Below are positions 2,612 through 61,557 of a DNA stretch of 64,000 nt, piece after piece. A model generated the notes under the pieces. It had not been told where the DNA came from. It worked only from the letters and a program-made list of their open reading frames with translations, and ran no database searches. The stretch spans positions 1 to 64,000 of the forward strand of contig CAJVGD010000019.1 of NCBI GenBank assembly GCA_910890315.1, read 5' to 3'. The DNA is from Serendipita indica DSM 11827. Lineage: Eukaryota > Basidiomycota > Agaricomycetes > Sebacinales > Serendipitaceae. Both the position numbers and the translations under genes were made by a program. Every line of letters starts with the position of its first letter. Position 1 is the stretch's first letter.

Positions 2612-3298
2612 CCAAATGTCCGAAATTTACCAGCCCAAGCCTCGTCGGCGTCGGCCGCTGATGAGCACGACGCGTCGCATTCACCAGCAGGCCTTGAAGT
2701 TTCATATGCCTTCCAGCTAATGCGAAACTCAGGGAAAGATTGGAACCCCACAGAATAGTCTCCTTGTGCTGTCTGGTAGGGAGGGGCTAAAGACAATCTC
2801 TATCTCACGGGGGTCGTACTGTGAGGGGTTGTGAGGGGATCGTCCGGTTCGTATGGAAGATAATTTTTTCCCATGTTTTTTTTGGTTTGGTGTGTAGTGG
2901 TACCTCGACTTCTATAGTTTAGTCGGATTTTCAATCCAAACATCTAGATCAGGTCGTTGGTCCTGGGTAAATGCTCCGCCCTAGGTGGTTATACATCTAA
3001 GTGACACCTAGGTTTTTTTTTTTGGGTTATTAAAGGTTTAGTCACTTGTCCGTGAGATTGGGCCGCTCTATCATGTGGTGAGAACCTACTCGGTACCTCT
3101 CAAGGAGGCCAAGGGATGTTGTCGATCGCTCCGGGCCTGGAATCCCACTCCGAGAAAACGTATCAACGCTCAACAATGGTGCATGAAAGCTATAATTAGA
3201 AAGCTAAACTTGGAAGGGACGCATGCTCCTCGTGGGTCCCTCACTGCCGATGAGCGACCCTGCTTCTTGGAATCAACCACAACTCTTATCTCTTGTAA
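2612..3298. other. Outer end of left arm, upstream of GH9
   Basis: No gene is supported. The DNA aligns with 60661-61557 at roughly 90-93%, lower than the arm core, and lacks about 210 bp present on the right. The portion next to 3299 is the GH9 promoter and 5' UTR. It has long T runs near 2875 and 3010. Confidence 0.6.
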
Positions 3299-5269
3299 AT
3301 GAAGGCTGGCCTCTCCTGGCTGCAAGCAGCCCTCCAAGGAACGATTTTTCTTTCTCAGCTGTTGCCTGTGGTCGCCCAGGTGCCCCTGCCGACGCCCGCA
3401 TGGACTCCACCGCCTGCAAGTTCCGGCGCTGTCAGCAGCCCCAACGCCAATCGACCCAATAAACAGTGGTCAACTCTCCTCGGAGAACTTCTCTACTTTT
3501 ATGATGCTCAGAGGAGCGGGAAACTTGTTTCCAACAGGGTAGACTGGCGTAACGACAGTTTAACGGATGACGGAAAGGGATATACCGATCTCTCTGGAGG
3601 ATTCTACGATGCGGGAGGTAGGACTTCTTGTTGGATCTTCCTCCAAGATGTTCTGACCCATTGTTTGTACAGACTACATCAAGGCAACATTTCCTTTGGT
3701 CAGTTAAATAATCTCCATCTCTTTGCTCATGATTCTGACCATGAAATAGTCCTGGGCACTAACGTCTATTTGCTGGGGAGCACTCGAATTTGGCAATGGA
3801 TACAAAGACGCCAATCAGACCGCCTATCTCGACTCCACTCTCCGCTGGGGACTCGACTGGTTGATAAAGGCGCATCCGGAAATGAATACGCTCTATGTGC
3901 TTGTTGGAGATGATCAAAAGGACAACAACTATTGGGGCGGCGACCAAAACATCCCATCGCCTCGTCCAGCATATCAGGTCAATGACACACACCCAGGCAC
4001 AGATGTCGCCGCATCTGCATCTGCTGCTTTTTCTTCGTGTGCGCTCCTCTACGGCAATAAGACACTGTCGAGCTCCTCAACGCCCGCGGCACTCGTCAAT
4101 ACAACCTATGCCAAAACGCTGTTGACACATTCGCGACAGCTCCTCAACTTTGCCGTCAATTCGACGCACGGGATGAAGCAATATCAGGATTCCGTGCCGC
4201 AGATCCAGGATGCCTATCCGTCGTCGGGTTATTACGACGATCTCGCACTCGCGTCTATCTTTCTCGGAGCAGCAGATTCATCCCCGACACTTCTTCAGCT
4301 TGCCAAGACATATTGGGACAAAGGAAGTCTGTCCCATGGCGATATTGCTCTTGACTGGGACTCCAAAGTCGCAGCGATCCCGGTTCTCATGACCGAGGTA
4401 TTAGCTTCTCAGTCTAGTTTGTCATCCGCCCAAGATGCCAATGCCTGGAAGTCTGCTGCGGAGAGTATTTTGGACCAGATAGTGGCAGCCAATGGACCAG
4501 GCTACCTCACTGGAGGAGGATTGTTATATTTCGACGGCAGCTCTGACAGTGCAAGTCTTAATCCTGCTTTAAACTCGGCTATGCTACTTGTCAAGTACGC
4601 GCCGCTCGCGTCGAAAAGCTCCAAGTCCAATGATTACCTGGTGAGTACTCGACGTTCCGATTCGAATTCGGTTGACACTATATTAGGCATTTGCCAAACT
4701 TCAGTTAGACTATGTCCTCGGAAACAATCCTATGAGCAGTATGTATTCGATCCCACCTGGTACCTTGCTGATGTCTGGTAGTGCCATATGTTGTTGGCGT
4801 CAATCCTAATTCCCCGCAGAACCCACACAGTGCTCCAGCTTCTGGTGGTTCTGATATTGGTAATATCAATTCATCACCACCCACGGAAGCCCACATCCTT
4901 TACGGCGCAGTGGTTGGTGGCCCAACCAAAGGCGACGAGTTTTGGGACGAGCGACGTGACTGGGTACAGACAGAGGTTGCGATCGACTATAACGCGCCAC
5001 TCCTCACACTTGCGGCATGGAAAGTCGCGACGGACGGTAACGACCCGTTCTATACCCGCCTGCAGGATGGCGCGTACGCCGCAAACCGACCGCCTGGCAC
5101 ATCGCGTCCGTGCTCGAATCCTGACGTTCCTTGTGGATATGAATTCCCCTTCCCTCAAGACCGCCAGATTGTCGTTGGGGTCTTCCTGGGCCTGGGCGGT
5201 GCTATTGTGCTTGCGATGGCTGGTTGGTATGCGTATGAATGGAAAAAGGCATCAACCAAGGCTGCGTAA
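3299..5269 (+). CDS. Glycoside hydrolase family 9 endoglucanase, membrane-anchored
   Basis: This is an inverting beta-1,4-endoglucanase (cellulase) of family GH9. I place exons at 3299-3617, 3673-3698 (a 26 nt micro-exon), 3750-4640, 4687-4738 and 4782-5269, giving about 591 residues. There is an N-terminal signal peptide, then a Pro/Ser-rich linker. The exon 1/2 junction builds the GH9 DAGDY motif (catalytic base region). YVLGNNPMS and PHSAPASGG are the conserved C-terminal active-site segments, and the Glu in QTEVAIDYNA is the expected catalytic acid. The last ~45 residues form one hydrophobic segment (about IVVGVFLGLGGAIVLAMAGW) and a short basic tail, so the catalytic domain should face the wall or extracellular space while anchored. 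The gene is open in both arms. The left copy has one extra Leu codon near 4590 relative to the right copy. Confidence 0.92.
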
Positions 5270-5477
5270 AGGGGCCTGTTGCTCCTTGTGCTCGCGACTA
5301 TGGACGCTTCTACTATTATCCAGTAATTGTGCTATTATATCATGATAGAGCGTAGACGCATCATTGGTGCTATTGAATCATCGGAGAAGAGGCTGCGGCT
5401 TTTGTGAGTAGCCTGCTGAGTCGGCGTCTTTAGGACTTGGTTCCGACCATCTCGACCTTGGTCGTCCCACAAACACT

Positions 5478-8400
5478 ATGGCCAGTACCTCGACCGAAAG
5501 CAAGACTTTGAGACCGCCAGGAAACTATCTCGCCATTGGTGCGTCCAGATTTGAGACCAGGACCCGTGCTCACGCCGTGCTGCCGATCTAGATGGCGGCA
5601 TCAGCACGCTCTCTTCGCTCATCATCCTCGAAGAAATGTTTGAGCGGTTGAAGTTCGACCTTAACAGCTCAGAAGATCTTCGGCCAGCCCGATTTCTAGA
5701 CGCTATCATCGGTACAGGTACCGGGGGGTTCGTTTGAACATAATCTATACATTTCGATGACTTATCTTCTTCTAGAATCGCGGCTATACTCTTAGGAAAG
5801 TTGGGCATGACCGCTACAGAGGCTATCGATGCCTACAGCACGCTAGAGGGCGCAATGGCGAGGACCAAGGCAACTAATGACAGCGAAAGAGCCTCGAACA
5901 CTGCACGGTTCAGAGAAGCATTTGTGTCGATCCTTCGTGCCCACAAAATGGAAAACTTGTTCATGCATGACGAAAAGCCAAATACAGCGACGTGTAAGAC
6001 GTATGTGATTTATTTAATCTTAATTCCAGTGCTCACACTTTACACAGAATTGTTTGCGCCATGAACAAAGCCAATATGGCTGGCTGTCATCTGATCAGAT
6101 CGTAAGAGACTGGTTTCCAACCAGCTTATTTGATCGCTCATAGTCAACCAGTTATCAGTCTAGGGGATGACCTCCCAAAATGTAGCATCCTTGATGCTGC
6201 TTGTGCCAGTATCAATGATCCGGAGATGTATGATCCAGTTCTCCTTGGGGCAGGCCACAGCTCTGTAACATTGATCAATGCTATGATGGGTTATGCCAAT
6301 CCCATCAAGGAGCTGATGAGAGAAACTCAGACTGCCCCATTTGGCGGAGAATTCGCAAATCTCGACGGTCATCAGCTTAGGAGCAGGGAAGCACGGACCG
6401 CTAGAGGCCAGTAGACTCAGCGATGCCATACGGAACATCGCTGCAGGCGCCGAGCGTACACACCAAGAAATGCAAGGACGCTTACGCGTGGAGGGCATCT
6501 ACTTCCGCTTTAACGTTGACCAAGGCATTCAGCCTGATGACGATATCAGCACCGTGAACGGCAAAACACGAGCATATGTGGAGATACCCGACGTTAATAG
6601 CGCGATCGATAACTCCTTGACCTCCCTGCGACATCGAGAGGAGCGGCTGTCTGCGAAACAGATCAGTACGTATTTTGATCCTCGCTGGACCTGAGTCTGA
6701 CCGCTGTCTAGATACAATCAAGGTGGTTGAAGTAGGCTTTAAGCCGCGACCGGCGCTGGTCCCAAACTTCATCGGCCGCGAGGACATCCTTCAAGGACTG
6801 CGCAGGACGCACATCTCTCCGCATACTCCAATGTCTCCAGGTACACCGACCCTCAGCGTATTATATGGTCTTGGTGGAAGCGGAAAAACTTCGATAGCGC
6901 TCCGATTCTGTTTGGATTTTGAGCAAGCGTGCGCCATTTGAGCACCCTAATTTTCGTTTACTCATCTCACGCAGGAACCCTGAGGCCCGCGTATACTTCC
7001 TCGACGCCCGTTCGGAGTCCAAGCTCACTGCAGACTTGGAAGCCATCGCTCGCTCGTGCGGGTCGAAGTTCAAAGGGAAAGGATGGAGGAATGCCCTTGA
7101 ATACTTTGCCGGCCTACCACAATTCCTGATTATCATGGACAACGCCGACGATACGACACTTCGTATCTCTCAGTTTTTCCCACAATGCAGCCACGGCCAC
7201 ATCATCATCACCAGTCGTAATGCGACATATTCCCAGCTCGCCCGTACAAGCAACTGGGAAGTTCGAGACTTATCTCCGGAACAAGCCAGGGATCTGTTGC
7301 TGACAGACGCCGATTATGAAAAGACGGAGACCAATGTCGAAGACGCCAGTAAAATTGTCGAGGCTCTTGGATGCCTGCCGTTGGGTGTAGCGCATGCGGC
7401 AGCCTACATTCATACACACCGATGTCTCTCGACATATCTTCAGACCTATCAACAGAGCTCGAGGCAACTCCTTGCTTATACTCTGCCGCACGATTTGAAT
7501 GAATCGGTTGCCACGACCATCAACATGTCACTGGAGAAACTCCCTCAGGAATCCAAGGATATCCTACGCATCCTATCCTTCTTCTCTGTATCATCTATCG
7601 CCCACTCTATCCTCATCGACGCCCACGAACACCAGTTTCAACGACGTTCGCAAAGTGGGAAGAAACATTCCAGCTCTGTTAGAGCGAGTGTGGTTCTATC
7701 CTCTTTGCTCTGTCCCAATGAAGTATGGTCGGAGTATGACATCAATGCTCGGCTATTGCCGTGTATACAGCACTCACTGCTTCGTACCGTGACAAGCGCA
7801 AACAATACGAAATTCTATTCCATGCACGTTCTAGTGCAGTCATATCTCCAAACGGATACATCCCCAATTCACAACATTTCCCCCGAATCCCTTGCCATAC
7901 GTCTCTTGGATTCCTCCATCAAGTTCGGAGAGTGGCAGTCAGTGATGCAACCTCAACTATTACCACATGTCAAACTCGTACCAAAGGGCAAGACGCTCGA
8001 TCCTGGCGCACATGGAGATTTCGCCAAAGTTCTTCAGCAAGCTGGCGAATACCAAGCAGCGCTGATACAAGTACAAATCGCGGTCAAAGGCTGGGAGAAC
8101 AAACTCGGTGAAAGACATGGGCAGACGCTTGCCGCCATGCAGAACATGGCGTGCTTGCTCGATTTCTCGGGCCGTATCGAAGAGTCGCTTGAGCTGAATT
8201 GGAAAATTCTAGAGCTCAGGAAACGGCACTCTCCCCAAGATCACCCGAGTACTCTGCTTTGCATGAGCGCCATCTCGCAAGCACTCACAAATCTCGGAAG
8301 ACATGAGGAGGCGGCCAAGATGGCCGAAGAGGCACTCGAGGCACAGAAAAAGGTCTTGGGATTAACCCATGCCGAGACTCTGATGACCATGACCCGTTTG

Positions 8401-8940
8401 GGGTGGACCTACGATAACCTTGGTCATCATACACGAGCTCTGGATATCAAGATGGAAGCGCTGGAGACGAGTAAGCGCATGTACAGCGAAGATCACATTG
8501 CGACGCTCAAGGCCATGGGAGGCGTCGGCATTTCCCTTTGCAAGCTTGGTCGCTTTGAGGACGCGTACAAGTTGCAAAAACGGATCGTCGACCTGCGGGA
8601 GAGGAAGCTCGAATCGATCACCCCGATACGATTTCGTCCATGAGCAACTTGAGCACGACTTTACTTGATATGGGCCGGCGCGAAGAAGCGCTTGAAATGT
8701 AGCAAAGTCGTGTCGCTCAGTAAGAAGCATCTGGGTGAAACCCACCCGCGAACTTTGAGAGCGAGCTATCAGCTCCTCTTTGCATATGACAAGTTTCGGA
8801 TGGAGGACGAGATGCGCCGGTCGCTGGGACCTATATTGACGCTACACGAGAGTGTACATGGTCGTGATCATCGGCACACGATACAGATCCGTCGATGGGA
8901 GCAGAAAATGGCTGCGCGGAGCGCGGGACCGATTGACTAA
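5478..8940 (+). CDS. Patatin-like / NB-ARC / TPR NLR-like protein (left copy, interrupted)
   Basis: This has the three-part architecture of fungal NLR-like receptors. Exons: 5478-5538, 5592-5727, 5776-6000, 6048-6101, 6152-6665, 6712-6928 and 6975-8940, about 1,060 residues. The patatin-like domain covers the first ~330 residues. The usual DGGGxRG oxyanion motif is reduced to DGGIST. The GxSxG nucleophile motif reads GTGTG (Gly codon 5717-5719), and the usual DG(G/A) reads NAM (Asn codon 6277-6279), so the lipase site looks dead. The NB-ARC domain has P-loop GLGGSGKT (6867-6890), Walker B FLIIMDNADD (about 7122), sensor IIITSRN, and GCLPLGVAHAAA as the GLPL motif. From about residue 750 it is a run of 42-residue kinesin-light-chain-type TPRs. 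Compared with the right copy, this one lacks 1 nt in a G run and 1 nt in a C run near 6165-6175, 2 nt at 6350, 1 nt at 8612 and 2 nt at 8699, so the frame is broken in the patatin and TPR parts. Both arms carry the same active-site substitutions. Confidence 0.85.
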
Positions 8941-9226
8941 CACATCCATTGGACAAAATTATTTCGTGTCATTACTTATAAGTATCTACTTTATTTTTGA
9001 ACGGTGTATGTATTATCTCCTTGCTGTCTTAATGGAGGTCTTTCTTTGCACAGTGATGTCAGTCGATGGCTAACCTCCACCGCGTCGTTGGCCATCGTTG
9101 ATTGCCCCATCATCTATGCGCCGCACGGGAAGATTTGGACAGCAACCCATTTCTCTCCCGATACGAACTTCGACTCGACGGATATTGGCACTGTATTCAA
9201 AAGGATCTGAACATCACGTTCGAAAT

Positions 9227-10250
9227 ATGAGCCAGCAAGCTGAATCTGGACTTCTTTTGTACACTTGGGGTACTCCAAACGGCAAGAAGGTAAGAACCGC
9301 TGGCACCGTCCACTAGGCTAGGCTAATTCTGACGAAACGCATAGGTATCAGTCTATCTTGAGGAACTCAAGGCCGCATATGGGCTCAAATACTCGTATAA
9401 ACCAATTGATATTACGACTAACATTCAGAAAGAGGACTGGTACATCAAGGTGAGCATTCGGGCGATGCCACTTATGTACGCATGGCAGGTTCATGCCAGT
9501 ACCTAGATCAACCCGAACGGTCGAATTCCAGCACTGGTAGATTACAATCGTGGAGGGTTCAAGGTGTTTGAAAGTGCAGCCATCTTGCTGTACCTCGCGA
9601 CGCCCTACGATACCGACCGCAAGTTTTGGTTCCCTGTGGGAAGTGACGATGAGAGTGAGGGTCTGCAATGGATATTCTTCTCAGTGAGTGTGAATCTTGA
9701 TTTCTTGTGAGCCTTGATTCAACGGTTGTGTAGCATGGAGGGATCGGTCCCATGCAGGGTCAAGGTAAGAGCGGAATTCCAGACGAACTCCTCATTGACC
9801 TATTCTAGCCGATCATTTTGCAATATATGCCAAGGAAAAGATGTAAGTTATCCGCACTGAATGCCGAGTCGATGCTGACGTTTGGGAAGCCCATATGCGA
9901 TTGAGCGTACGCTACACTGTCCATCTTCGACTATGCACGAGACTGAGTAAATTCTTAGGTTACGTCAACGAAACAAAGCGTTTATACTCGGTGCTCGAGA
10001 TTCGTCTCAAAGACAGAGACTATCTGGCGGGTCCAGGACGTGGAACGTACTCTATCGCAGACATAAACTGCTTCCCATGGGTCGATATTCACGGCTTGAT
10101 CGACATTAAGACGCTCGACGAATGGCCTGGTGTAAAGGCATGTATCTTTATTCGCCTCTGTCCAAGGCTGAGTGTTGATAGGCATGGATGGAACGCATCA
10201 AAGTGCGTCCTCAAGCACAGGCGGGACTCGCGATCCCCAAGAAAGAGTAA
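9227..10250 (+). CDS. Ure2/YfcG-like glutathione transferase
   Basis: This is a cytosolic-type GST of the fungal Ure2p-like class, with a thioredoxin-like N-terminal domain and an all-alpha C-terminal domain. It starts [21 protein letters not shown]. The [12 protein letters not shown] segment (glutathione-binding cis-Pro), [11 protein letters not shown] and [10 protein letters not shown] are class signatures. The C-terminal domain includes [17 protein letters not shown], the N-capping Asp region. It has seven or so small exons and about 225 residues. One exon joins IERY to [12 protein letters not shown] across 9919-9958. The last intron seems to use a GC donor after the GVK codons near 10137. 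Thiol-transferase or detoxification activity is likely; the substrate cannot be told. It ends 79 bp from the convergent DnaJ gene. Both arm copies are open. Confidence 0.88.
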
Positions 10251-10329
10251 CGTTTTCCGAGTCCCGGATTGAAGAATCAATAAATCAGTGATTCAATATA
10301 CATCTGCAGAATAACTCATTGGTCCTGGC

Positions 10330-11780
10330 TCATAGCTCGTCCTTGCCTCGCCCTTTGCCAGTCTTGAATGCCTCCTGAAGCTCTGAACAAGGGTTAGCGA
10401 GTTGATGTGAAAAGAGAGAGAATGACGTACTCTTTCGCGTATCTTCTGATAATACGGTAGGTAGAACCACGTTGAATTCGACATAGAGATCACCGTGCCC
10501 GTGGCCCTCGTAGATGGGCATACCCTCATCCTTGACAACCATAGTGTATCCTGTAGGCTAATAAGTCTAAGGTGGGGGACGAGGGATCCTACTTGCCTGG
10601 TTGCGTGACTCCTGGTCTGGAAATTGTGACCTGATGGCCATCCAAGTGGGTAATATTTCTCTCAAAGCCAAGTAGGGCCTATAGCCTGTGAGAGCGGTTC
10701 ATAGAACACGGAAGGTCGTACCTCGGCAACAGAAATGGTCTCCTTCCAGTAGAGTGACGACTCCTTTCTTCGCCATCCACCAGCCACCTTCTGTGTTCGG
10801 ATACGCAAGACAACATCTCCAGCTTCCCACTCGGCCGATTGATCCCCCTCGCCCTCAAAGACGACTTCATGCCCCTCTGGCATGCCCTTTTCAACCTCGA
10901 GCGTATAATGACCCGTATGATCAATAACCTTTTCCCCATTACAATGCTTGCACGGACGTGCAATGACTTTGCCTTTACCACTACACTGTGGACACGTCGT
11001 CTGCGTTGTCGCGTACATGCCGGGGAAAATCTGCTGACGACCCGTCTTGACACCAGAGCCATTGCAGGTCGGACACGTCTTGATATCTCCGTCGGAATTG
11101 GCGCCCGTTCCACGGCAGTGGTCACAGAGAATCTTCTTCTTGATCATGAATTCGACGCTGTTGCCCGTGTACACGTCGGCGAGGTTGACTTCAAATTCGG
11201 ACATCATCGTTGGTCCACGACGGACGGATTCGTGGTGTGGATGTCCGCCGCCGAAAAAGTTGGAAAAGACGTCGAAGGGGTTCGAGTGTTGGCCGCCTTC
11301 GTGTGCTTGTAGGCCTTCTTCACCGTGGCGGTCATATATTTGCCGTTTCTGCAGGCCATGTGTCAGAATTCGGAACGTCAAGGTGGGAATGATAGCGTAC
11401 CTCAGGATCTGAGAGTGCCTCGTATGCTGTTTAGATTGTCAGTCGTTGCATTTATATGGATACGGATGCCAACGAACCCTGAGTAATCTCGACAAACTTT
11501 GCCTCTGCTCCTTCGTCCTTGTTCCTATCTGGATGAAACTTTCTGCTGAGGCGCTTGTATGCCTTCTTGATATCAGCATCCGAAGCGGAACGGTCCACTG
11601 CGATAAGAGATGTCGTTGCAGCGTTTTAAAGGGTCGATAGACGTGCATTAGCAAACTGAGTATACACAGACGGAGTATCTCAGACTCACAGTCCAGGATT
11701 TTGTAAAAGTTTCTTCCACCGAGGACGTAGAGAGCGCATGTGAGCAACACGAATAGCCTGCTGATTAAGATGACTGCCAT
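10330..11780 (-). CDS. SCJ1-like: ER-lumenal DnaJ (Hsp40) co-chaperone, Scj1/ERdj3-like
   Basis: This is a type I J-protein of the endoplasmic reticulum. It has a hydrophobic N-terminal signal sequence (about [20 protein letters not shown]), then a J domain split over three exons with the HPD motif in [11 protein letters not shown] Gly-rich stretch around [13 protein letters not shown] follows, then four zinc-binding CxxCxG-type motifs ([31 protein letters not shown]), the C-terminal client-binding domains, and a final KDEL retrieval signal. It is about 375 residues. The known role is stimulation of the BiP/Kar2 ATPase in folding and ER-associated degradation. This left copy is fully open; the right copy has two frame-changing indels. 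It shares a 332 bp divergent promoter with the checkpoint gene at 12113. Confidence 0.93.
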
Positions 11781-12112
11781 GGTTGGGAATGAAAAGCTCT
11801 AAATGACACGGCCTAGAAGTGTGGGTGTGCCAGGTGGCGGGGAGACGAGTGCTGCACGGCGGAGAGTGCTGGGAGCGGTTTTAAGACGCGAACAAGAGAA
11901 CGAGGGAATAATTAACAGAGCCTATGGGCGACAGCGCACCAAGAGACTTTTGTGGTTGGTAGCCAAATCTGAGGTCAACGTGGCACCCAGTCTGCATCTC
12001 CGACGACGGTTCAGAGATTTAGAATAACATTAGAAAGTATACTAAATCAACTCTGGAATATATTCTATTTATATGGATCCGCCGGGGGTTTAACAGTCTA
12101 ACAGTCTAACAG
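11781..12112. promoter_or_regulatory. Divergent promoter between DnaJ and checkpoint genes
   Basis: These 332 bp separate two start codons pointing apart, so they must hold both core promoters. The direct repeat AACAGTCT occurs just upstream of 12113. No clear TATA box or known factor site is assigned. Confidence 0.5.
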
Positions 12113-15100
12113 ATGTCACCCTTTGAACTCGACCTCGACTTTTGTCCTGAGTCTGGTGTGGGCGGCTGTATGCCGCGACAAAAGAAATCTCGCACAAATG
12201 AGCAATCTCGCTCAGCAGCTTCCCAGTGAGTCTCATAACATCCATTTCCAGGTTTGCCACCGACTTGTCCTTGCGAGTTTTGCACATTTTGTCTGCATCG
12301 CTGACGCGTTTGTACTCGAAAACAATCCACAGAATCATCAGTCCCGTCGCTCAGCGATTTCCGGACGCATTTGTGCACGAACCAATGGCCATGGACGACG
12401 TGCACTCGGCAGCTCATGCGAGCCTGACGAAATCTCCAGAGCCAGAAATACACAAACGACGACGATTACCCATACAAGACGACTCTACCATCGAGGATGC
12501 TTACAGAACTTCCCACCGCGGCGTAAGTTGAACAAAACAAAGCCTCCCAAGGCAAACCGATGCTAAACGTGTATGTAGCCGCCAGACTCTTTTACGACGA
12601 CCACAACGCGTCCTCCACCAAGTTCGACTACAGGAGCAACCCCTCCTCCCGATTCGTTAAGAAAGGACACGCTTTTGACCATGGACGAGGACAAAGCCCC
12701 GGCGCGTGGGCCGTCAGCGATGTCCATGCCAATTCCTAGAACACCTCCACGCTCCAGCCACCTCTCGCTTCACGCTACCATATCTGTTGCAAAGTCCCCA
12801 TCCCGCACTCAGTCCCTCCCTACTGTCTCACCAGAAAGACCAGCGCTTGCGGATGCGGCTGAAGAAGCCGGCGGTTCACTCCACCGTGTTAGTTCTGCCA
12901 TGGCAAAGCGTTCTGCTGGGCCGTCATCGGGTCGAAAACCTCAACCGGTCTCACTGTCTAGTCCCAAGAAGCCGTCCCCGATCAAGACGCGGAAGAATAC
13001 CATAGAGGAGAACGATGCAGACGACGAGGGTCCTAGTCAAGCATCCACAAATCCCATAAGCGCGACACAGTCGATGCCAGAACTCGGAGAGTCTCCTCAG
13101 CATAGGATATCTCCCATTACGCTCCTGCCCAAAGTCCTCCGTCACCAAAAGCCAACTCCACCGCAGCCCATCAACCACGAATCATCTACCCGTGGAGGTG
13201 ACGACACACAGTCCTCTGCTTCTTCGCGCGAGTTTCGTACCTTGTCGCGGTATATGCGAGACGACGAAAACAAGGTTTCTCGTCCTCTCACACAGTTTAT
13301 AGTCGGAGAGAATCCGCCTGGCATATTCATTCAATCGCAAACGCAAACGCAGACGCAGACGCAGTCACAGGTTGACCCCAGTCACGAGGCGGGCGAAAGC
13401 CTATCTCATGTTCCCAGGACGCTCGTCAGGGGTACGCCCTCTGAGACGTCGGAGACGTCGCAGCATGAGCGTGATTGGCGAGCGATCGAGCATGAAGAAC
13501 TTGTCCCGACGCAGATCCTTGAGTCCACCCAAGAGCTCTTGCCGACGCAGGATGCTACAGAGTTTGTCGAAACAGCTCTGGTAGACACGCAGGATGGGGC
13601 GCCCATGTACGAAGCGTCGCCTAGCAAACCGATCAAGACACTCAACATTTCCCCGGTCAAGAAGCGAGGAGGATACTTTTCGTCGTCATCTGCACAGAGT
13701 ATTCCTGGACTCTATCTACCTGGAGATGGCAAGAGTTCCGAGTCGCAGCAGTCGCAGCTCTCCGAGAAGAGTATCAATCAGCCCGCAGCGCCTCTTGCGA
13801 TGCCTAGGGTGCTTGCTGTCACTGCATCAGGGACAACCACAGGGACTCCTTCGTTGCAAAAGGAAGGGCCAGCTTCGACTTTGCGCCGTAATCCTATCAA
13901 GTCTTCGCGTCCAGGAGGTTACAGAGCGACGTCTGGTTCACAGAACGACAATCTTCCCCAAAATCCAAAGTCATCCGTCAATCATCCAGTCTCCTCTGCC
14001 GCGAACGGCCACGTACCCAAGCGGAACCCATTGGCCAGACGAAAGACGCCTGTCGATCTGAGTCAGTTGCTACAGGGTTTGGAGCAGCGGGAGCGCGTAG
14101 TTGTACCATCCAGTGACCCTTTCATGCCTATAGAGGCGGACCAGTCGTCTTTACCCGAGGAGACGATGCCGGTGAGCTTCCCTGTGGGTGAACAGGAAGC
14201 CATCGACGAGCCTCAAATCGAACAAGAGGATGAAATACTGGCTGAACGTGATTCATCAGAGCCGGCAAAATCTGAGATTATGGAGACGGATGATGAGCCT
14301 CAAGCTAGGCACGCTCTTGATACTCCCAGGCCGCTGCCTAAACATCAAGAGCACACTGTTGCTGTCCAAGACCCAGCAGTAGGTCTCTCAATGGAATTTC
14401 TACTTTATATCTCACACTTCTCTGTAGCAATACAGGTCTGATACCGACACGGAGGAGCTTCCGCCTCGCTCGATATCAACAACGAAAACGCCCGTATCGA
14501 AACAGTCGTCCAAGACTATCTCTTCTAGCCCTTCCAAAGGCTCTTCAAAGGTGACTGCGAAGCAGGGCTCTCCAATAAAAAGACCCCACGGAGAGTCTGT
14601 CGTTGAGAGGGAGCTTAGTGATCAGACGAGCAGCCCCGACGACGATGAATCTGATTATGTCCCTCAAACTCAAACTCAGAAGGACGATCTGGAAGGCGAG
14701 GCGGTGGAATCCTATCCAGGCGAGGATGCATGGGATGAGTCACAATCTCCTCGACGTCCGGGAAAACGATCTGCGAACGAGCAAGGTGGTCGTAAAGGCA
14801 AGCGAATCTGCCGACGGACGGCCAGTCCCAAAGTCGGCGTTGACGACGTCGAAGGGGAAGAAACGCCAAAAGGAAAGCAGGAGCAGGCACCACCAAAGCC
14901 TGCGAAACCGCGACTCGATTTAGGCGCGATGATGATGCCTCCACCAGGTCGACGTGCGACTCGTGCTATGGCCAACACGCGTACTCGTGGTATTTCTCTC
15001 AATACTCCCATCGTCCATAGCGGACACCTGGTCATGGCACACTTTCCGGAGAGCAAGCGTTTCTTTCCTGGATATGCAGTTGCCCGTACGGGTGTAAAAT

Positions 15101-16583
15101 GGCAGGTTAATCCTTGTGATGATTCCCCATCCGTCTTTGTGGAGCCCGGCTCTATGCGTCGCTGTGTGTTCCGAGAAGGAGACATTGTCACCATGACGCC
15201 AGATGGCAATGGAGAAAACTATGGTGATGCCATTGTCATCCTAGTGGACTCCAAATGGGATGAGGAGCTGGTGGTGAAGCTGCGCATTGGTGCGGATGAC
15301 GATGTCGAGGAAAGATATGTTCATGTCAGGCACATTTCGGTCCAAGATCAGCACATTACAAAGCAATGGGACACACGCAAGGTTTCGCATCGGGACCTAG
15401 AGACAGAGGAACCGGTCGCCGAGTCTCCTGTGCCCATGTCCGCAATTGGAAGAACGGGATCATTGATCATTACTCCTCCCCTGAAGGCAACTGCTCCAAG
15501 CAGTTTCCGTGGGCAGCCTGGAATCTCTGGGAAGATGTTTGCTGGCGTCGGGTTCATCATCAGCAGTTTCGACCGCGACACAAAGTTTTTAACCGACAAT
15601 GGTGGAATCATTTTCCCCTCGTGGTTAGACGCCTTTCGCTTTGATGGCGTGATCGAAAAGGTCAAAGGTGGCCCGACGCGGGCAAAACGATGGACTCGCG
15701 GGATGTCGACGGGCCGTGGTCGTAACAAGATGTCCCCATCTGCACCCGTGACGTGGATTGGTGGCGATTTTGACGTGACGGTACGGACGATGTTTGTCAT
15801 CGCTGGGAAGTGCGCTATGACGCCAAAGTACCTTATGGCACTTGCGTTGGGTATACCTATCGTTTCACCCAAATGGCTTGATGAATGCAAGGAAACGGTG
15901 CGTGTTAGTTACCGAATTGACATCTGTATTGAGTAGGACATAGAGCTCTCGTGTCAACTGGCTTCTTATCTCCTCCCGGCTCACCCACAAAACAGTCCGC
16001 TCAGCATCGTGTCGAGCTTGCCTTACCAAACACCAGATCCACTCTGGGGGTCACCTATGTATGATGCCAGTATCCTTCAGAACCTTCTCGCGCATGGACC
16101 TTTGCATCATCGGCGTATTCTGGCGGACAAGCCGAGCGTTTTATTCGTCGCTGCGGACTGTATTACCAAGATCGAGGCGGATTTGGACGCCATCAAGAAA
16201 GATGCGTATGAAGTGAGTGTTTCAGGAGCTCAAGAGCGTCATACTGAACTAGCTGGTAGCGCCCGAAGGATCCGTCCTGCGAATTTCCCTTTGTCTATTG
16301 TTGTCTGGCCATGGGCGCCCAGCAAATTGAGGCAGTGGAAAAGTATGATCACGCAACTGATCCGACGCTACTCAAGTATAATGTCGTTGTCCTGGCTGAC
16401 GAGCTACATGGGCCCAAAGCAAAGGAGAATATCCTGCTGGCCAGCCTGCCGAAGACGCTCGTCGAAGCGGCGAAGAGCGGTGTTCAAGTTCTCAATCAGA
16501 CCGACTTTAAGATGAGCCTTGCCTGCGGCAAGCTGCTTACCGTCTCTCATCGTCCAAACCATCACGTTTCGGCCACTATCTAG
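12113..16583 (+). CDS. Crb2/Rad9/53BP1-type DNA-damage checkpoint mediator
   Basis: This is a large (about 1,390 residue) nuclear adaptor. It has a long disordered, phosphosite-rich N-terminal half (12.1-15.0 kb), a tandem-Tudor-like domain (about 15031-15350, starting near HFPESKRFFPGYAVARTG) and two C-terminal BRCT domains (about 15535-15900, with the conserved Trp in SPKWLDECKE, and about 16080-16583). The N-terminal half has an SQ/TQ cluster including QTQTQTQTQSQ near 13340 and PTQIL, STQELL, PTQDA, DTQDG around 13510-13600. These are candidate Mec1/ATR and Tel1/ATM sites. The family binds methylated H4K20 and phospho-H2A through Tudor and BRCT and activates Chk kinases. The start at 12113 (MSPFELDLDF) is chosen by position and by the equal start in the right arm. 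The exact first intron is uncertain: splicing from 12226 to about 12331 restores the frame of the large exon. This copy is open. Confidence 0.85.
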
Positions 16584-16785
16584 TACCCCAATTCAAGTGT
16601 ATCACGTCATCAACACAATCTTGCTATCCAACTGTTGCTCTTCACATCTAGCTTTTGTAGTCCCTCAAGCCTTTTGTTGTGCACGAGCCACTCGACATTA
16701 GAGCACACTTTTTTGCATAGTACAGCTCTAGATAGTCAACACTGTACCATATTCAAAAAGATTGAAGTAAATTCTGCTTCTTCGT

Positions 16786-18306
16786 TTACAACTTGGAGTT
16801 TCCCCTGGATGAGACTTGTACCAACCTGTGAACAATATCAGAGTAACTCAATGTTCGAGACGGGAGGAGTACTTACAGCTTTCCAGTATTCTTGCCTTCA
16901 AAGAGATGATTTAGGTATTGAGGAGCACCCTCGAGTCCCTTTTCTATGTGGAATCGGCGCTTGAGTTTGCCGGCCGCGAGCCACTCTGCGAGTTTCTGAC
17001 GTGCTTCCCCGAAGCGGGCACCATAGTCCATGACGATGAAGCCTTGCATTTTAGCTCGTTGCCCGATTAGTGAGAGGTAGTTTTGAAGACCACGCGGTTT
17101 GGTGTCGTCTACGTATGCAGGTCAGCGGGTTCCTTCTGAACAAGTAGTTGCTCACTGTATGCAGAGATGGCGCCTGGTAGAGATTAGTATGAGGGATAGA
17201 ACGGATGTAATTCGACTCACCGCACATTACAATCCGTGCATTCTTGTTCAAGCGCGAGAGGCATAGATCGAGGATTTCGCCACCAACTGTTCGAAATTCG
17301 GTCCTCTCGCCCATTGTTCGATTCGACCAAACTCACCATTGTCAAAGTAGACGTCGAGATAGCCAACGGATTGCTTAAATTCCTTTGCGAAATCTGGGCT
17401 CTTGTAGTTGAGTGCCTTGTCGACGCCGACTTCTTGCTCGAGCCACTGGCATTTGTCGTCCGAGCCGGCAATGGCAATGACCTTGGCACCGATAATCTTG
17501 CCAATCTGACATACGACGGAACCTGTCGCACCGGCTGCACCGGATACGACGAGGGTTTCGCCTGCCTTGATTTCGCCAATCTCAGTGAGGCCCTGATCGC
17601 GGGGTGAGTTTACTCGTTTGCATAAGATGATATTTGACGCACAAAGTATGCGGTAAGACCTGCACATGGCCGTCAGAATGCTGGAGCCGGGCAAGAGTAA
17701 AAAAAACGCACCGGTCATACCGAGAACACCCATAAAGTCGAGAGGAACGCCACCTGTTGGAGCTCTAAAGTGATATTTAGATTGCGTTTTGCAGGAGTAT
17801 TGGGCCCATACTTGATGACTTGGAGAGATTTTGCGGGCAGTTTGGCTAGCTCGGTCCATCCTGTAATAACATAAGTAAATGTGGAGATAGGGCAAAACGT
17901 TATAGACTTACCTAGTCCCCCAGAGACAGAGTCTCCGACTTTAATGTCCGACACTTCACTGCCGACGGCGACGACAGTGCCCAAGCCGCCAGCACGCATG
18001 ACCTCTCCGATTTCAACCTGGAGACCATCGTCAGTCTTGGATCCAAGATTAATGGAGTCTACGAACGGGAGCAATGTAGGATCGCTCATTCTTGAGCCAG
18101 CCGCGCATTGCAGGATCGAGCGAGACATAGTCGACCGAGACGAGGACATCGGTGGGACCCATTGAGGCCTTGAGGTCCCCAGACTTGAGCGTTTCTTTCT
18201 TGAACGTCTCAGACGTGACGGGACCCTCTGGACGTTTGTCCAAGACGAGGCGAGTATAAGTTTCTGGGATTCCCGTAGACATTGATGATGATGAAGATGT
18301 GGTCAA
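16786..18306 (-). CDS. Medium-chain NADP-dependent reductase (LTB4DH/PTGR-like)
   Basis: This belongs to the zinc-independent MDR family (leukotriene B4 12-hydroxydehydrogenase / alkenal double-bond reductase). There is no zinc-binding Cys/His set. SLDPAMRGW and EIGEVMRAGGLGTV are typical of the family. The Rossmann motif is SGAAGATGSVVCQIGKI and the NADP 2'-phosphate contact region is GSDDKCQWL. It is about 345 residues with several short introns; one of about 50 nt joins YIAP to VEIGEV near 18040. The start is either 18306 or 18282 (MSTGIPETY); the eight extra residues are mostly serine. The likely role is NADPH-dependent reduction of reactive enones and aldehydes. It converges with the checkpoint gene, 202 bp apart. 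Both copies are open. Confidence 0.88.
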
Positions 18307-42464: not shown

Positions 42465-42832
42465 CTGCATCTCGCCAGCCATCGCAAGGTTGGCAGGTGT
42501 GGGAAAGGCGTCAAGTTTTCAAGTTGGATTTAACTGGTCACTGGTCACTGGTATTGGTCAATTGTTCACCGTTTTCGTTCAAAGTAGACCTCTGCATCTC
42601 GCCAGCCATTGCAAGGTTGGCGGGTGTAGGAGAGGCGTCAAGTTTTTCAAGTTGGATTGAACTGGTCACTGGTATTGGTTACTCGTTCATCGTTTTCGTT
42701 CAAAGTAGACCTCTGCATCTCGCCAGCCATCGCAAGGTTGGCGGGTGTAGGAGAGGCGTCAAGTTTTTCAAGTTGGATTTAACTGGTCACTGGCATTGGT
42801 TACTCGTTCATCGTTTTCGTTCAAAGTAGACC
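42465..42832. repeat. Tandem repeat, three copies of ~122 bp (right arm)
   Basis: Mirror of the array at 23162-23529, with the same unit and the same copy number. Unit-by-unit differences from the left array are few. Confidence 0.88.
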
Positions 42833-55017: not shown

Positions 55018-58000
55018 TTAGTCAATCGGTCCCGCGCTCCGCGCAGCCATTTTCTGCTCCCATCGACGGATCTGTATCGTGTGCCGATGATCACGACCAT
55101 GTACACTCTCGTGTAGCGTCAATATAGGTCCCAGCGACCGGCGCATCTCGTCCTCCATCCGAAACTTGTCATATGCAAAGAGGAGCTGATAGCTCGCTCT
55201 CAAAGTTCGCGGGTGGGTTTCACCCAGATGCTTCTTACTGAGCGACACGACTTTGCTACACATTTCAAGCGCTTCTTCGCGCCGGCCCATGTCAAGTAAA
55301 GTCGTGCTCAAGTTGCTCATGGACGAAATCGTATCGGGGTGATCGATTCGGAGCTTCCTCTCCCGCAGGTCGACGATCCGTTTTTGCAACTTGTACGCGT
55401 CCTCAAAGCGACCAAGCTTGCAAAGGGAAATGCCGACGCCTCCCATGGCCTTGAGCGTCGCAATGTGATCTTCGCTGTACATGCGCTTACTCGTCTCCAG
55501 CGCTTCCATCTTGATATCCAGAGCTCGTGTATGATGACCAAGGTTATCGTAGGTCCACCCCAAACGGGTCATGGTCATCAGAGTCTCGGCATGGGTTAAT
55601 CCCAAGACCTTTTTCTGTGCCTCGAGTGCCTCTTCGGCCATCTTCGCCGCCTCCTCATGTCTTCCGAGATTTGTGAGTGCTTGCGAGATGGCGCTCATGC
55701 AAAGCAGAGTACTCGGGTGATCTTGGGGAGAGTGCCGTTTCCTGAGCTCTAGAATTTTCCAATTCAGCTCAAGCGACTCTTCGATACGGCCCGAGAAATC
55801 GAGCAAGCACGCCATGTTCTGCATGGCGGCAAGCGTCTGCCCATGTCTTTCACCGAGTTTGTTCTCCCAGCCTTTGACCGCGATTTGTACTTGTATCAGC
55901 GCTGCTTGGTATTCGCCAGCTTGCTGAAGAACTTTGGCGAAATCTCCATGTGCGCCAGGATCGAGCGTCTTGCCCTTTGGTACGAGTTTGACATGTGGTA
56001 ATAGTTGAGGTTGCATCACTGACTGCCACTCTCCGAACTTGATGGAGGAATCCAAGAGACGTATGGCAAGGGATTCGGGGGAAATGTTGTGAATTGGGGA
56101 TGTATCCGTTTGGAGATATGACTGCACTAGAACGTGCATGGAATAGAATTTCGTATTGTTTGCGCTTGTCACGGTACGAAGCAGTGAGTGCTGTATACAC
56201 GGCAATAGCCGAGCATTGATGTCATACTCCGACCATACTTCATTGGGACAGAGCAAAGAGGATAGAACCACACTCGCTCTAACAGAGCTGGAATGTTTCT
56301 TCCCACTTTGCGAACGTCGTTGAAACTGGTGTTCGTGGGCGTCGATGAGGATAGAGTGGGCGATAGATGATACAGAGAAGAAGGATAGGATGCGTAGGAT
56401 ATCCTGGATTCCTGAGGAGTTTCTCCAGTGACATGTTGATGGTCGTGGCAACCGATTCATTCAAATCGTGCGGCAGAGTATAAGCAAGGAGTTGCCTCGA
56501 GCTCTGTTGATAGGTCTGAAGATATGTCGAGAGACATCGGTGTGTATGAATGTAGGCTGCCGCATGCGCTACACCCAACGGCAGGCATCCAAGAGCCTCG
56601 ACAATTTTACTGGCGTCTTCGACATTGGTCTCCGTCTTTTCATAATCGGCGTCTGTCAGCAACAGATCCCTGGCTTGTTCCGGAGATAAGTCTCGAACTT
56701 CCCAGTTGCTTGTACGGGCGAGCTGGGAATATGTCGCATTACGACTGGTGATGATGATGTGGCCGTGGCTGCATTGTGGGAAAAACTGAGAGATACGAAG
56801 TGTCGTATCGTCGGCGTTGTCCATGATAATCAGGAATTGTGGTAGGCCGGCAAAGTATTCAAGGGCATTCTCCATCCTTTCCTTTGAACTTCGACCCGCA
56901 CGAGCGAGCGATGGCTTCAAGTCTGCAGTGAGCTTGGACTCCGAACGGGCGTCGAGGAAGTATACGCGGGCCTCAGGGTTCCTGCGTGAGATGAGTAAAC
57001 GAAAATTAGGGTGCTCAAATGGCGCACGCTTGCTCAAAATCCAAACAGAATCGGAGCGCTATCGAAGTTTTCCGCTTCCACCAAGACCATATAATACGCT
57101 GAGGGTCGGTGTACCTGGAGACATTGGAGTATGCGGAGAGATGTGCGTCCTGCGCAGTCCTTGAAGGATGTCCTCGCGGCCGATGAAGTTTGGGACCAGC
57201 GCCGGTCGCGGCTTAAAGCCTACTTCAACCACCTTGATTGTATCTAGACAGCGGTCAGACTCAGGTCCAGCGAGGATCAAAATACGTACTGATCTGTTTC
57301 GCAGACAGCCGCTCCTCTCGATGTCGCAGGGAGGTCAAGGAGTTATCGATCGCGCTATTAACGTCGGGTATCTCCACATATGCTCGTGTTTTGCCGTTCA
57401 CGGTGCTGATATCGTCATCAGGCTGAATGCCTTGGTCAACGTTAAAGCGGAAGTAGATGCCCTCCACGCGTAAGCGTCCTTGCATTTCTTGGTGTGTACG
57501 CTCGGCGCCTGCAGCGATGTTCCGTATGGCATCGCTGAGTCTACTGGCCTCTAGCGGTCCGTGCTTCCCTGCTCCTAAGCTGATGACCGTCGAGATTTGC
57601 GAATTCTCTCCGCCAAATGGGGCAGTCTGAGTTTCTCTCATCAGCTCCTTGATGGGATTGGCATAACCCATCATAGCATTGATCAATGTTACAGAGCTGT
57701 GGCCTGCCCCAAGGAGAACTGGATCATACATCTCCGGATCATTGATACTGGCACAAGCAGCATCAAGGATGCTACATTTTGGGGAGGTCATCCCCCTAGA
57801 CTGATAACTGGTTGACTATGAGCGATCAAATAAGCTAGTTGGAAACCAGTCTCTTACGATCTGATCAGATGACAGCCAGCCATATTGGCTTTGTTCATGG
57901 CGCAAACAATTCTGTGTAAAGTGTGAGCACTGGAATTAAGATTAAATAAATCACATACGTCTTACACGTCGCTGTATTTGGCTTTTCGTCATGCATGAAC

Positions 58001-58481
58001 AAGTTTTCCATTTTGTGGGCACGAAGGATCGACACAAATGCTTCTCTGAACCGTGCAGTGTTCGAGGCTCTTTCGCTGTCATTAGTTGCCTTGGTCCTCG
58101 CCATTGCGCCCTCTAGCGTGCTGTAGGCATCGATAGCCTCTGTAGCGGTCATGCCCAACTTTCCTAAGAGTATAGCCGCGATTCTAGAAGAAGATAAGTC
58201 ATCGAAATGTATAGATTATGTTCAAACGAACCCCCCGGTACCTGTACCGATGATAGCGTCTAGAAATCGGGCTGGCCGAAGATCTTCTGAGCTGTTAAGG
58301 TCGAACTTCAACCGCTCAAACATTTCTTCGAGGATGATGAGCGAAGAGAGCGTGCTGATGCCGCCATCTAGATCGGCAGCACGGCGTGAGCACGGGTCCT
58401 GGTCTCAAATCTGGACGCACCAATGGCGAGATAGTTTCCTGGCGGTCTCAAAGTCTTGCTTTCGGTCGAGGTACTGGCCAT
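55018..58481 (-). CDS. Patatin-like / NB-ARC / TPR NLR-like protein (right copy, interrupted)
   Basis: Mirror of 5478-8940. The patatin part and the whole TPR part are open here, where the left copy is broken. The active-site substitutions are shared: GTGTG at about 58235-58250 and Asn at 57678-57680. The breaks lie in the NB-ARC region: one A is lost in the A run of the P-loop (about 57068), and two single bases are lost near 56402-56416 after the GLPL-type motif. Three more single-base losses at 56864-56925 cancel each other but change about 20 residues. All are in homopolymer runs. If both sets are sequence errors, the locus encodes two nearly identical NLRs of about 1,060 residues. Confidence 0.85.
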
Positions 58482-58692
58482 AGTGCTTTGTGGGACGACC
58501 AAGGTCGAGATGGTCGGAACCAAGTCCTAAAGACGCCGACTCAGCAGGCTACTCACAAAGAAGCCGCAGCCTCTTCTCCGATGATTCAATAGCACCAATG
58601 ATGCGTCTACGCTCTATCATGATATAATAGCACAATTACTGGATAATAGTAGAAGCGTCCATAGTCGCGAGCACAAGGAGCAACAGGCCCCT

Positions 58693-60660
58693 TTACGCAG
58701 CCTTGGTTGATGCCTTTTTCCATTCATACGCATACCAACCAGCCATCGCAAGCACAATAGCACCGCCCAGGCCCAGGAAGACCCCAACGACAATCTGGCG
58801 GTCTTGAGGGAAGGGGAATTCATATCCACAAGGAACGTCAGGATTCGAGCACGGACGCGATGTGCCAGGCGGTCGGTTTGCGGCGTACGCGCCATCCTGC
58901 AGGCGGGTATAGAACGGGTCGTTACCGTCCGTCGCGACTTTCCATGCCGCAAGTGTGAGGAGTGGCGCGTTATAGTCGATCGCAACCTCTGTCTGTACCC
59001 AGTCACGTCGCTCGTCCCAAAACTCGTCGCCTTTGGTTGGGCCACCAACCACTGCGCCGTAAAGGATGTGGGCTTCCGTGGGTGGTGATGAATTGATATT
59101 ACCAATATCAGAACCACCAGAAGCTGGAGCACTGTGTGGGTTCTGCGGGGAATTAGGATTGACGCCAACAACATATGGCACTACCAGACATCAGCAAGGT
59201 ACCAGGTGGGATCGAATACATACTGCTCATAGGATTGTTTCCGAGGACATAGTCTAACTGAAGTTTGGCAAATGCCTAATATAGTGTCAACCGAATTCGA
59301 ATCGGAACGTCGAGTACTCACCAGGTAATCATTGGACTTGGAGCTTTTCGACGCGAGCGGCGCGTACTTGACAAGTATAGCCGAGTTTAAAGCAGGATTA
59401 AGACTTGCACTGTCAGAGCTGCCGTCGAAATATAACAATCCTCCTCCAGTGAGGTAGCCTGGTCCATTGGCTGCCACTATCTGGTCCAAAATACTCTCCG
59501 CAGCAGACTTCCAGGCATTGGCATCTTGGGCGGATGACAAACTAGACTGAGAAGCTAATACCTCGGTCATGAGAACCGGGATCGCTGCGACTTTGGAGTC
59601 CCAGTCAAGAGCAATATCGCCATGGGACAGACTTCCTTTGTCCCAATATGTCTTGGCAAGCTGAAGAAGTGTCGGAGATGAATCTGCTGCTCCGAGAAAG
59701 ATAGACGCGAGTGCGAGATCGTCGTAATAACCCGACGACGGATAGGCATCCTGGATCTGCGGCACGGAATCCTGATATTGCTTCATCCCGTGCGTCGAAT
59801 TGACGGCAAAGTTGAGGAGCTGTCGCGAATGTGTCAACAGCGTTCTGGCATAGGTTGTATTGACGAGTGCCGCGGGCGTTGAGGAGCTCGACAGTGTCTT
59901 ATTGCCGTAGAGGAGCGCACACGAAGAAAAAGCAGCAGATGCAGATGCGGCGACATCTGTGCCTGGGTGTGTGTCATTGACCTGATATGCTGGACGAGGC
60001 GATGGGATGTTTTGGTCGCCGCCCCAATAGTTGTTGTCCTTTTGATCATCTCCAACAAGCACATAGAGCGTATTCATTTCCGGATGCGCCTTTATCAACC
60101 AGTCGAGTCCCCAGCGGAGAGTGGAGTCGAGATAGGCGGTCTGATTGGCGTCTTTGTATCCATTGCCAAACTCGAGTGCTCCCCAGCAAATAGACGTTAG
60201 TGCCCAAGACTATTTCATGGTCAGAATCATGAGCAAAGAGATGGAGATTATTTAACTGACCAAAGGAAATGTTGCCTTGATGTAGTCTGTACAAATAATG
60301 GGTCAGAACATCTTGGAGGAAGATCCAACAAGAAGTCCTACCTCCCGCATCGTAGAATCCTCCAGAGAGATCGGTATATCCCTTTCCGTCATCCGTTAAA
60401 CTGTCGTTACGCCAGTCTACCCTGTTGGAAACAAGTTTCCCGCTCCTCTGAGCATCATAAAAGTAGAGAAGTTCTCCGAGGAGAGTTGACCACTGTTTAT
60501 TGGGTCGATTGGCGTTGGGGCTGCTGACAGCGCCGGAACTTGCAGGCGGTGGAGTCCATGCGGGCGTCGGCAGGGGCACCTGGGCGACCACAGGCAACAG
60601 CTGAGAAAGAAAAACCGTTCCTTGGAGGGCTGCTTGCAGCCAGGAGAGGCCAGCCTTCAT
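58693..60660 (-). CDS. GH9 endoglucanase, membrane-anchored (right arm)
   Basis: Mirror of 3299-5269 and open: signal peptide, DAGDY, YVLGNNPMS, PHSAPASGG, catalytic Glu in TEVAIDYNA, and C-terminal transmembrane anchor are all present. It has one codon less near 59372 (NSAILVKYA against NSAMLLVKYA). It starts at 60660 with the same 26 nt second exon. Confidence 0.91.
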
Positions 60661-61557
60661 TTACAAGAGATAAGAGTTGTGGTTGATTCCAAGAAGCAGG
60701 GTCGCTCATCGGCAGTGAGGGACCCACGAGGAGCATGCTTCCCTTCCAAGTTTAGCTTTCTAATTATAGCTTTCATGCACCATTGTTGAGCGTTGATACG
60801 TTTTCTCGGAGTGGGATTCCAGGCGCGGAGCGATAGACAATATCCCTTGGCCTCCTTGAGAGATAATAAAATAAACCACAGCCTGTGATTGGTGACCAGG
60901 GCATTCAAGTGAGTATTAGGCAAGTTCTGGCCCAGCTCATCAGGGCTGAGAGTACACTCCCATGTAGAGGCAACTTACCCTCTTTGATTCCGAATGCGCT
61001 TGAAACGAATAGTTGCATCTCACCCTTTGTTCCTTGTATTGAGCTGGCAGGTTATGAGGTTGGATATAAAACTCGTCGACGAGTATGTTCTCACCACATG
61101 ATAGAGCGGCCCAATCTCAAGGACAAGTGACTAAACCTTTAATAACCCAAAAAACCTAGGTGTCACTTAGATGTATAACCATCTAGGGCGAAGCAATTAC
61201 CCATGACCGACGACCTGATCTAGATGTTTTGATTGAACATCCGGCTAAACTATAGAAGTCGAGGTATCACTACACACCAAACCCAAAAAAAAACATGGGA
61301 ACAAATTACCTTCGATACGAACCGGACGATCCCCTCACAACCCCTCACAGTACGACCCCCGTGAGATAGAGATTGTCTTTAGCCCCTCCCTACCAGACAG
61401 CACAAGGAAACTATTCTGTGGGGTTCCAATCTTTCCCTGAGTTTCGCATCAGCTGGAAGGCATATGAAACTTCAAGGCCTGCTGGTGAATGCGACGCGTC
61501 GTGCTCATCAGCGGCCGACGCCGACGAGGCTTGGGCTGGTAAATTTCGGACATTTGG
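60661..61557. other. Outer end of right arm
   Basis: Aligns with 2612-3298 at about 90-93%. About 210 bp near 60863-61080 have no counterpart on the left. This segment has neither inverted ends nor a clear target duplication, so a deletion on the left is as likely as an insertion here. No gene is seen. Confidence 0.5.

Follow-up and report, generated by a model that had tools for sequence, protein, structure and literature searches.

The first 64,000 nucleotides of contig CAJVGD010000019.1 of Serendipita indica DSM 11827 (assembly GCA_910890315.1, forward strand; hereafter the window) contain two near-identical arms of more than 22 kb that face each other in opposite orientation across a spacer. 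We consider it fairly probable that this arrangement is a real and rather recent inverted segmental duplication, which was initiated when an older inverted repeat primed fold-back copying, and was then partly homogenised. The parts of the structure are as follows.

2612 to 27033, plus strand: left arm, 24.4 kb, including a 2.0 kb insert found on the left only
27034 to 38960, no strand: spacer between the arms, 11.9 kb
38961 to 61557, minus strand: right arm, 22.6 kb, inverted copy of the left arm

The inverted structure is seen directly in a self-comparison of the window, where the arm match stands far above chance. BLAST returned three inverted matches (2612-3092 to 61557-61080 at 95.2%, 3094-18977 to 60865-44993 at 99.2%, and 20999-27033 to 44998-38961 at 98.3%), and a global alignment of the arms gave a single collinear inverted pair with two large gaps. 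Both comparisons bear out the mirrored duplication around a spacer of about 12 kb proposed in a preliminary description of this DNA, with edges at most 18 bp from those first given. One gap corresponds to 2,027 bp absent from the right arm (the insert of 2,021 bp together with a single copy of its 6-bp target duplication) and the other to 213 bp absent from the left arm. The greater length of the left arm is thus due mainly to the insert and the extra copy of the target duplication, partly offset by the 213 bp found only on the right. Between the inverted copies, the spacer is unique within the 64 kb window.

The inner boundary of the arms does not end abruptly; divergence rises stepwise from 0.8% to 10.5% from left-arm position 26653 onwards, and then to about 32%. 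A clean breakpoint at the inner edge was considered and rejected, since the homology passes positions 27033 and 38961 into the spacer: the inverted similarity at the spacer/arm boundary is 10.5% divergent over 381 aligned bases and then continues at 68% identity over 169 columns (E 3.7e-8), involving the following two segments.

27099 to 27266: older inverted homology at the left spacer end, 68% identical to 38795-38955 on the opposite strand
38795 to 38955: older inverted homology at the right spacer end, partner of 27099-27266

When the 1-kb ends of the spacer were compared, the best inverted local score was 71; 300 shuffles averaged 22 and never exceeded 32, and the same-strand control scored 20. 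Judged by this similarity, the two spacer ends are relatives of each other in the inverted sense. Because the homology runs on into both of them, the joins at 27033 and 38961 look evolved rather than like assembler seams; a step to 10.5% followed by 68% homology reaching into the spacer is what we would expect from homology-primed fold-back, and not from a seam placed by an assembler at the arm edge. Apart from the 68% edge pair, the inverted matches that blastn returned within the spacer (word size 7, E up to 10) are all 20-23 bp long, with E values of 0.42 or worse, so that the spacer holds nothing obvious to fold an assembler back.

The outer edges, on which three flanking features bear, are sharp.

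1058 to 2272, minus strand: NmrA-like paralogue in the left flank, outside the arm (Pfam run on this flank copy)
61558 to 62360, plus strand: TPR repeats in the right flank, an array whose first repeat starts at the arm edge
62892 to 63962, minus strand: GST paralogue in the right flank, 64-68% DNA identity to the arm GST gene in the aligned parts

No homology was found between the two flanks over the 1 kb nearest the arms (local score 20, against a maximum of 30 in 200 shuffles and 23 on the same strand), nor was any detectable between the full outer flanks, of which 2.4-2.6 kb is visible per side (score 24 in both orientations). The right-flank TPR array begins at 61558, at the arm edge, and apparently represents the 3' part of a TPR gene; the gene would accordingly have lost its 5' part at this point. 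The inverted homology of the spacer ends, the unrelated visible flanks and the lack of a close inverted repeat in the spacer by blastn together strengthen the earlier lean towards a real structure. The flanks also hold relatives of arm genes. The NmrA-like gene, immediately outside the left arm, is oriented like its right-arm counterpart, and it is about equidistant from the two arm copies at 21558-22765 and 43228-44439 (83.7% and 84.0%); the TPR repeats of the right flank are related to the NLR-type gene of the arms. These flanking paralogues (NmrA-like, GST and TPR) point to several layers of duplication in the neighbourhood.

The arms are more than 99% identical through most of their length. 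Over the core (left-arm positions 2612-26620), and with indels set aside, we counted 162 substitutions in 21,949 aligned bases, 110 of them transitions. The resulting divergence of 0.74% is lower than the 1-2% first estimated; over the whole left arm (2612-27033), the count is 202 in 22,362 (0.90%). The differences are unevenly spread. Their variance-to-mean ratio in 500-bp bins is 4.18, whereas 2,000 random placements gave at most 1.84, and the two longest mismatch-free runs (2,188 and 1,836 bp) both exceed the longest run in 5,000 simulations (1,698 bp). A three-state segmentation, whose state rates were chosen by hand so that the segment limits are approximate, divides the left arm as follows.

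2612 to 2854: 0.82% divergence
2855 to 3134: 6.9% divergence over 275 aligned bases, around the 213-bp indel
3135 to 4283: 0.61% divergence
4284 to 8315, partner 55646-59675: nearly mismatch-free tract, 0.02%, one mismatch in 4,023 aligned bases
8316 to 26652: 0.82% divergence
26653 to 27033, partner 38961-39342: inner-edge segment, 40 mismatches in 381 aligned bases, 10.5%

At 80 sites the left arm carries G or C and the right arm A or T, while the reverse holds at 60 sites; without an outgroup, these counts give no direction of change. Repeat-induced point mutation was rejected as a source of the differences, as the changes of C-to-T type lack a CpA bias (25 at CA, 24 at CT, 29 at CC and 32 at CG).

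Two large segments are present in one arm only.

18978 to 20998, no strand: left-only insert, 2,021 bp, with 24-bp terminal inverted repeats and a CACATC target duplication
60867 to 61079, no strand: right-only stretch, 213 bp, corresponding to left position 3092

The left-only insert starts with TATGAGCGGCCACGGTGGAC and ends with the reverse complement of TATGAGCGGCCACGGTGGAC, a motif that occurs once per strand in the window. It is flanked by CACATC at 18972-18977 and at 20999-21004, and the right arm retains the empty site near 44999, with one CACATC and no insert. About 90 bp adjoining the insert carry eight mismatches. Its two open reading frames (ORFs), 19888-20286 and 20314-20685, matched no Pfam family at E 0.01, so that no transposase gene was recognised in them. 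By its structure the insert appears transposon-like, at most a non-autonomous DNA element, and it would have entered after the separation of the two arms, or of two alleles.

Small gaps show a different distribution from substitutions. In the core, 30 of the 36 gaps are 1-2 bp long, and 11 of these fall in the tract 4284-8315 beside its single mismatch, compared with 19 against 161 mismatches elsewhere (Fisher p 2.4e-9, a value obtained for a tract picked for its few mismatches). Indel density alone is the fairer test and gives a weaker result, with 11 of 30 small indels in 4,032 of the 21,949 bases (18%; p 0.016). Single-base gaps are about evenly shared, 12 lacking in the right arm and 11 in the left; 18 of the 23 lie in runs of at least two identical bases, which hold 42% of arm bases, and 12 of the 23 in runs of at least three, which hold about 15%. 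In a crude check, the arm lacking the base had the shorter stop-to-stop frame at 21 of the 30 sites and the longer one at 9. Judged by eye, 14 of the 30 sites are broken in the base-lacking arm (eight in the NLR-type gene, three in the BRCT gene and three in the NmrA-like gene), with the crude check disagreeing at 4 of the 14. Such a pattern of small indels fits the behaviour of long-read consensus sequence without full correction. From these features, the 30 small indels are likely to be largely consensus errors of long reads, with a minority of sites unclear. By contrast, the gaps of 3, 6 and 3 bp at left-arm positions 4582, 13336 and 14928 lie inside ORFs, keep the frame and look real. Nanopore reads are described as missing bases in inverted duplicates (PMC7229812), and this might explain base-losing errors in both arms, if that was the platform.

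Mechanistically, the anatomy of the locus, with the contig join taken as correct, suggests the following course of events. The spacer would already have lain between the copies of an inverted repeat of some 0.4-0.65 kb, old and diverged (26653-27266 on the left, 38795-39342 on the right). Through fold-back or strand invasion, a broken end at the right-hand repeat copy would then have annealed to its left-hand counterpart; copying would have proceeded outward along the left arm and stopped when the new end joined the TPR gene on the right without detectable homology. The copy would thus have been laid down as a mirror image around an unchanged spacer. Afterwards, the arms would have diverged by about 0.8%, the left arm alone would have received a transposon-like element, and gene conversion from arm to arm would have restored identity in at least one tract of about 4 kb.

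Several points weigh against this course of events. Two alleles could equally well differ by 0.7% and share identical tracts, and the zones at 10.5% and 32% could mark the border of an allelic block with high divergence. The edges of the structure lie at fast-changing families (F-box and TPR/NLR), where haplotypes can lose synteny too. Gene conversion is a supposition, as no outgroup polarises the changes and the G/C counts carry no direction. In wild-type yeast, long spacers strongly cut the rate at which inverted repeats recombine (PMC10164571). By comparison with the limit of 75% identity for repeat-driven rearrangement in a yeast telomere-uncapping mutant, the 68% homology falls too low, so that the initiator would have to be the better-conserved part of the repeat.

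One of the other explanations takes the arms as two alleles of a heterokaryon or dikaryon, joined head to head by the assembler inside the spacer. A divergence of 0.74%, identical tracts and a one-sided transposon are all ordinary between alleles, the arm edges fall at families of the fast-changing kind, and the 30 small indels, among which 18 of the 23 single-base cases fall in runs of identical bases, point to a long-read assembly with incomplete correction. The two haplotypes of a dikaryotic fungus can also differ widely; in a stripe rust they are 78.8% syntenic (PMC12129025). However, as both inner edges carry homology into the spacer, the seam would have to sit in the spacer interior, where no inverted match above 23 bp is available as mediator beyond the edge pair, although a chimeric read could still serve. 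Allelic homology would further have to vanish on both sides together, yet the visible flanks share none and the two halves of the spacer only the 68% patch; one haplotype would then lack the MaoC and GGACT genes at the expected place, making these genes of a conserved type nucleus-specific. Taking both sides into account, we hold a join of haplotypes to be unlikely. A misjoin through the spacer of true paralogues from elsewhere in the genome seems very improbable: the flanks do hold further paralogues of arm genes (NmrA-like at 84% on the left, GST and TPR on the right), as in a duplication-prone neighbourhood, but a random misjoin does not predict inverted homology between the spacer ends.

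The structure could also be much older than fold-back copying of a recent date implies, namely a long-lived inverted pair whose arms have been repeatedly homogenised by gene conversion, in the manner of mammalian sex-chromosome palindromes. The gradient from a core at 0.8% to an inner edge at 10.5% and then about 32% agrees with such a history, as do the 4 kb tract at 0.02% and the higher divergence next to each large indel (6.9% over 275 bases, and the eight mismatches in about 90 bp). On the other side, the old segment at 68% measures no more than about 0.17 kb and may simply be a small older repeat that seeded a young duplication; recombining alleles could yield the same mosaic. We regard great age as unlikely. 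A converted palindrome with arms of 22-24 kb and about ten genes per arm, including one of NLR type, on an ordinary fungal nuclear chromosome, in which flips of the spacer would produce an inversion polymorphism between nuclei, is to us similarly doubtful. The recent fold-back duplication therefore remains our preferred account; these gradings are weights of judgement rather than computed values, and their sum slightly exceeds one since the fold-back and old-palindrome accounts overlap and are not exclusive.

The genes of the arms and the spacer, with arm genes given by their left copies except for the NLR-type gene, are listed below.

3299 to 5345, plus strand: GH9 glycosyl hydrolase gene, left arm; limits approximate, last ORF (4782-5345) without a Pfam match
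6898 to 8643, plus strand: main ORF of the NB-ARC/TPR (NLR-type) gene, left arm; NB-ARC positions 101-247 of 248
55018 to 56460 and 56279 to 57058, minus strand: ORFs of the NB-ARC/TPR (NLR-type) gene, right arm
9212 to 10272, plus strand: GST gene, left arm; limits approximate
10293 to 11798, minus strand: DnaJ chaperone gene of endoplasmic reticulum (ER) type, with hydrophobic start, J-like stretch, zinc-finger domain and KDEL end; exon limits approximate
12102 to 16515, plus strand: BRCT-domain gene; limits approximate, BRCT in ORF 14428-15936
17248 to 18302, minus strand: zinc-binding alcohol dehydrogenase-like gene
21558 to 22765, plus strand: NmrA-like gene, left arm; 84% identical to 1058-2272, Pfam on the flank copy only
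27377 to 29099 (one frame break), 29390 to 30844 and 31356 to 32837, plus strand: three F-box genes in a row, spacer
around 34197 to 34577, plus strand: MaoC gene, spacer
34797 to 35566, minus strand: C2H2 zinc finger gene, spacer
35975 to 36550, minus strand: GGACT/AIG2-like gene, spacer
36408 to 38378, plus strand: ORF of 656 amino acids, spacer; sub-threshold F-box similarity (E 0.056)

This content, in the arms (GH9, NLR-type, GST, DnaJ, BRCT, zinc alcohol dehydrogenase and NmrA-like) and in the spacer (F-box, MaoC, C2H2 zinc finger and GGACT), broadly agrees with what was first proposed. Gene limits in this list do not follow modelled exons, so the figure of ten mirrored genes is approximate. 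The proposed ER chaperone is supported by a DnaJ protein with a hydrophobic start and a KDEL end. For the BRCT protein, the PDB at E 0.1 yielded a single weak match, Mdb1 of fission yeast at E 0.023, and PDB searches with the proteins of the window gave only distant relatives. The arm ORFs 23652-24440 and 25796-26389 had no family match; we found no tRNA in the window and no Rfam match at the gathering threshold. The first and third F-box genes share 67% DNA identity. A three-copy tandem repeat of 121 bp is present in both arms (23162-23530 and 42464-42832), beside an unassigned gene.

Differences between the arms in coding sequence, counted for signs of selection, are mixed and point neither way, with 13 silent and 15 changing in the BRCT ORFs and 1 silent and 7 changing in an ORF of 262 amino acids, the ORF limits ignoring introns. 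The ORF 25796-26389, taken as a non-coding control, has 3 silent and 2 changing differences and shows no contrast with the coding ORFs.

As assembled, neither copy of the NLR-type gene has a single open frame. The left ORF (581 amino acids) covers NB-ARC profile positions 101-247 of 248 and three TPR_10 stretches, while the right-arm ORF 55018-56460 (480 amino acids) has five TPR_10 stretches and no NB-ARC match, the upstream ORF 56279-57058 lying outside that scan. The BRCT ORF spans 502 amino acids on the left against 344 plus 155 on the right, and the two arms also have DnaJ frames of unequal length. We do not take decay of one NLR copy into a pseudogene to be chiefly responsible for the broken frames, the indels being concentrated in the nearly mismatch-free tract; most likely, the frame differences in the NLR, BRCT and DnaJ genes come from consensus errors. 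Such errors are not confined to the arms, as the first F-box gene of the spacer has one frame break, near 28766 relative to the third F-box gene. A doubled dosage of an NLR, a checkpoint mediator and an ER chaperone, as put forward in the preliminary description, is hence a weaker proposition than claimed, with no single open frame in either NLR copy and with unequal BRCT and DnaJ frames between the arms.

Several known systems resemble this structure in part. Among them are human inverted duplications in which the spacer has normal (disomic) copy number and is bordered by inverted homology (Hermetz et al. 2014, PMC3907307); 3 of 21 sequenced junctions run through diverged repeats of about 300 bp. 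The structure described here shares with these fold-back cases the inverted copies around a spacer and the inverted homology at the spacer boundary. It differs in that the human cases adjoin terminal deletions, translocations or rings (PMC3907307), whereas here the window includes both flanks, and the divergence between the arms is 0.7%. Inverted repeats recombine at spacers of up to 30 kb and at divergence of up to 25% in a telomere-uncapping mutant of yeast that has long single-stranded DNA (PMC10164571); the 10.5% segment falls inside this limit on divergence and the segment at 68% identity outside.

Among fungi, Candida albicans carries long inverted repeats that are linked to rearrangement, copy-number change and a dicentric intermediate (PMC6591007, PMC7371428). 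Its repeat 124 is given in a legend as about 3.2 kb at 99.5% identity and 11.3 kb apart, and in the text as about 1.7 kb and 11.5 kb apart (PMC6591007). Like these repeats, the structure in the window is fungal and nuclear, holds several ORFs and has a similar spacer; unlike repeat 124, its arms are about seven times longer and no rearrangement activity is known for the locus. Mammalian sex-chromosome palindromes are gene-converted and have arms of more than 99% identity (PMC8981503, PMC3723533), and it is this identity that they share with the arms in the window. Inverted repeats of Caenorhabditis elegans keep their structure while their sequence changes, with arms and spacers far shorter than those here (PMC1803023). 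Among the entries that our literature search listed, no fungal nuclear inverted duplication of this size appeared.

Should the two arms prove to be an assembly join, the locus would serve as a warning that uncorrected arms, with their pattern of small indels, can mimic diverging gene copies and broken NLR genes. If the duplication is real, it would be an arm-spacer-arm structure much longer than the fungal nuclear examples described in the excerpts of PMC6591007 and PMC7371428, with its seed repeat still visible at the inner edge, and a natural record of how a mirror duplication originates and is homogenised in a fungus. It is also reasonable to expect, as was first suggested, that recombination between the arms would flip the spacer, and the locus would then be a site where the spacer could flip between nuclei.

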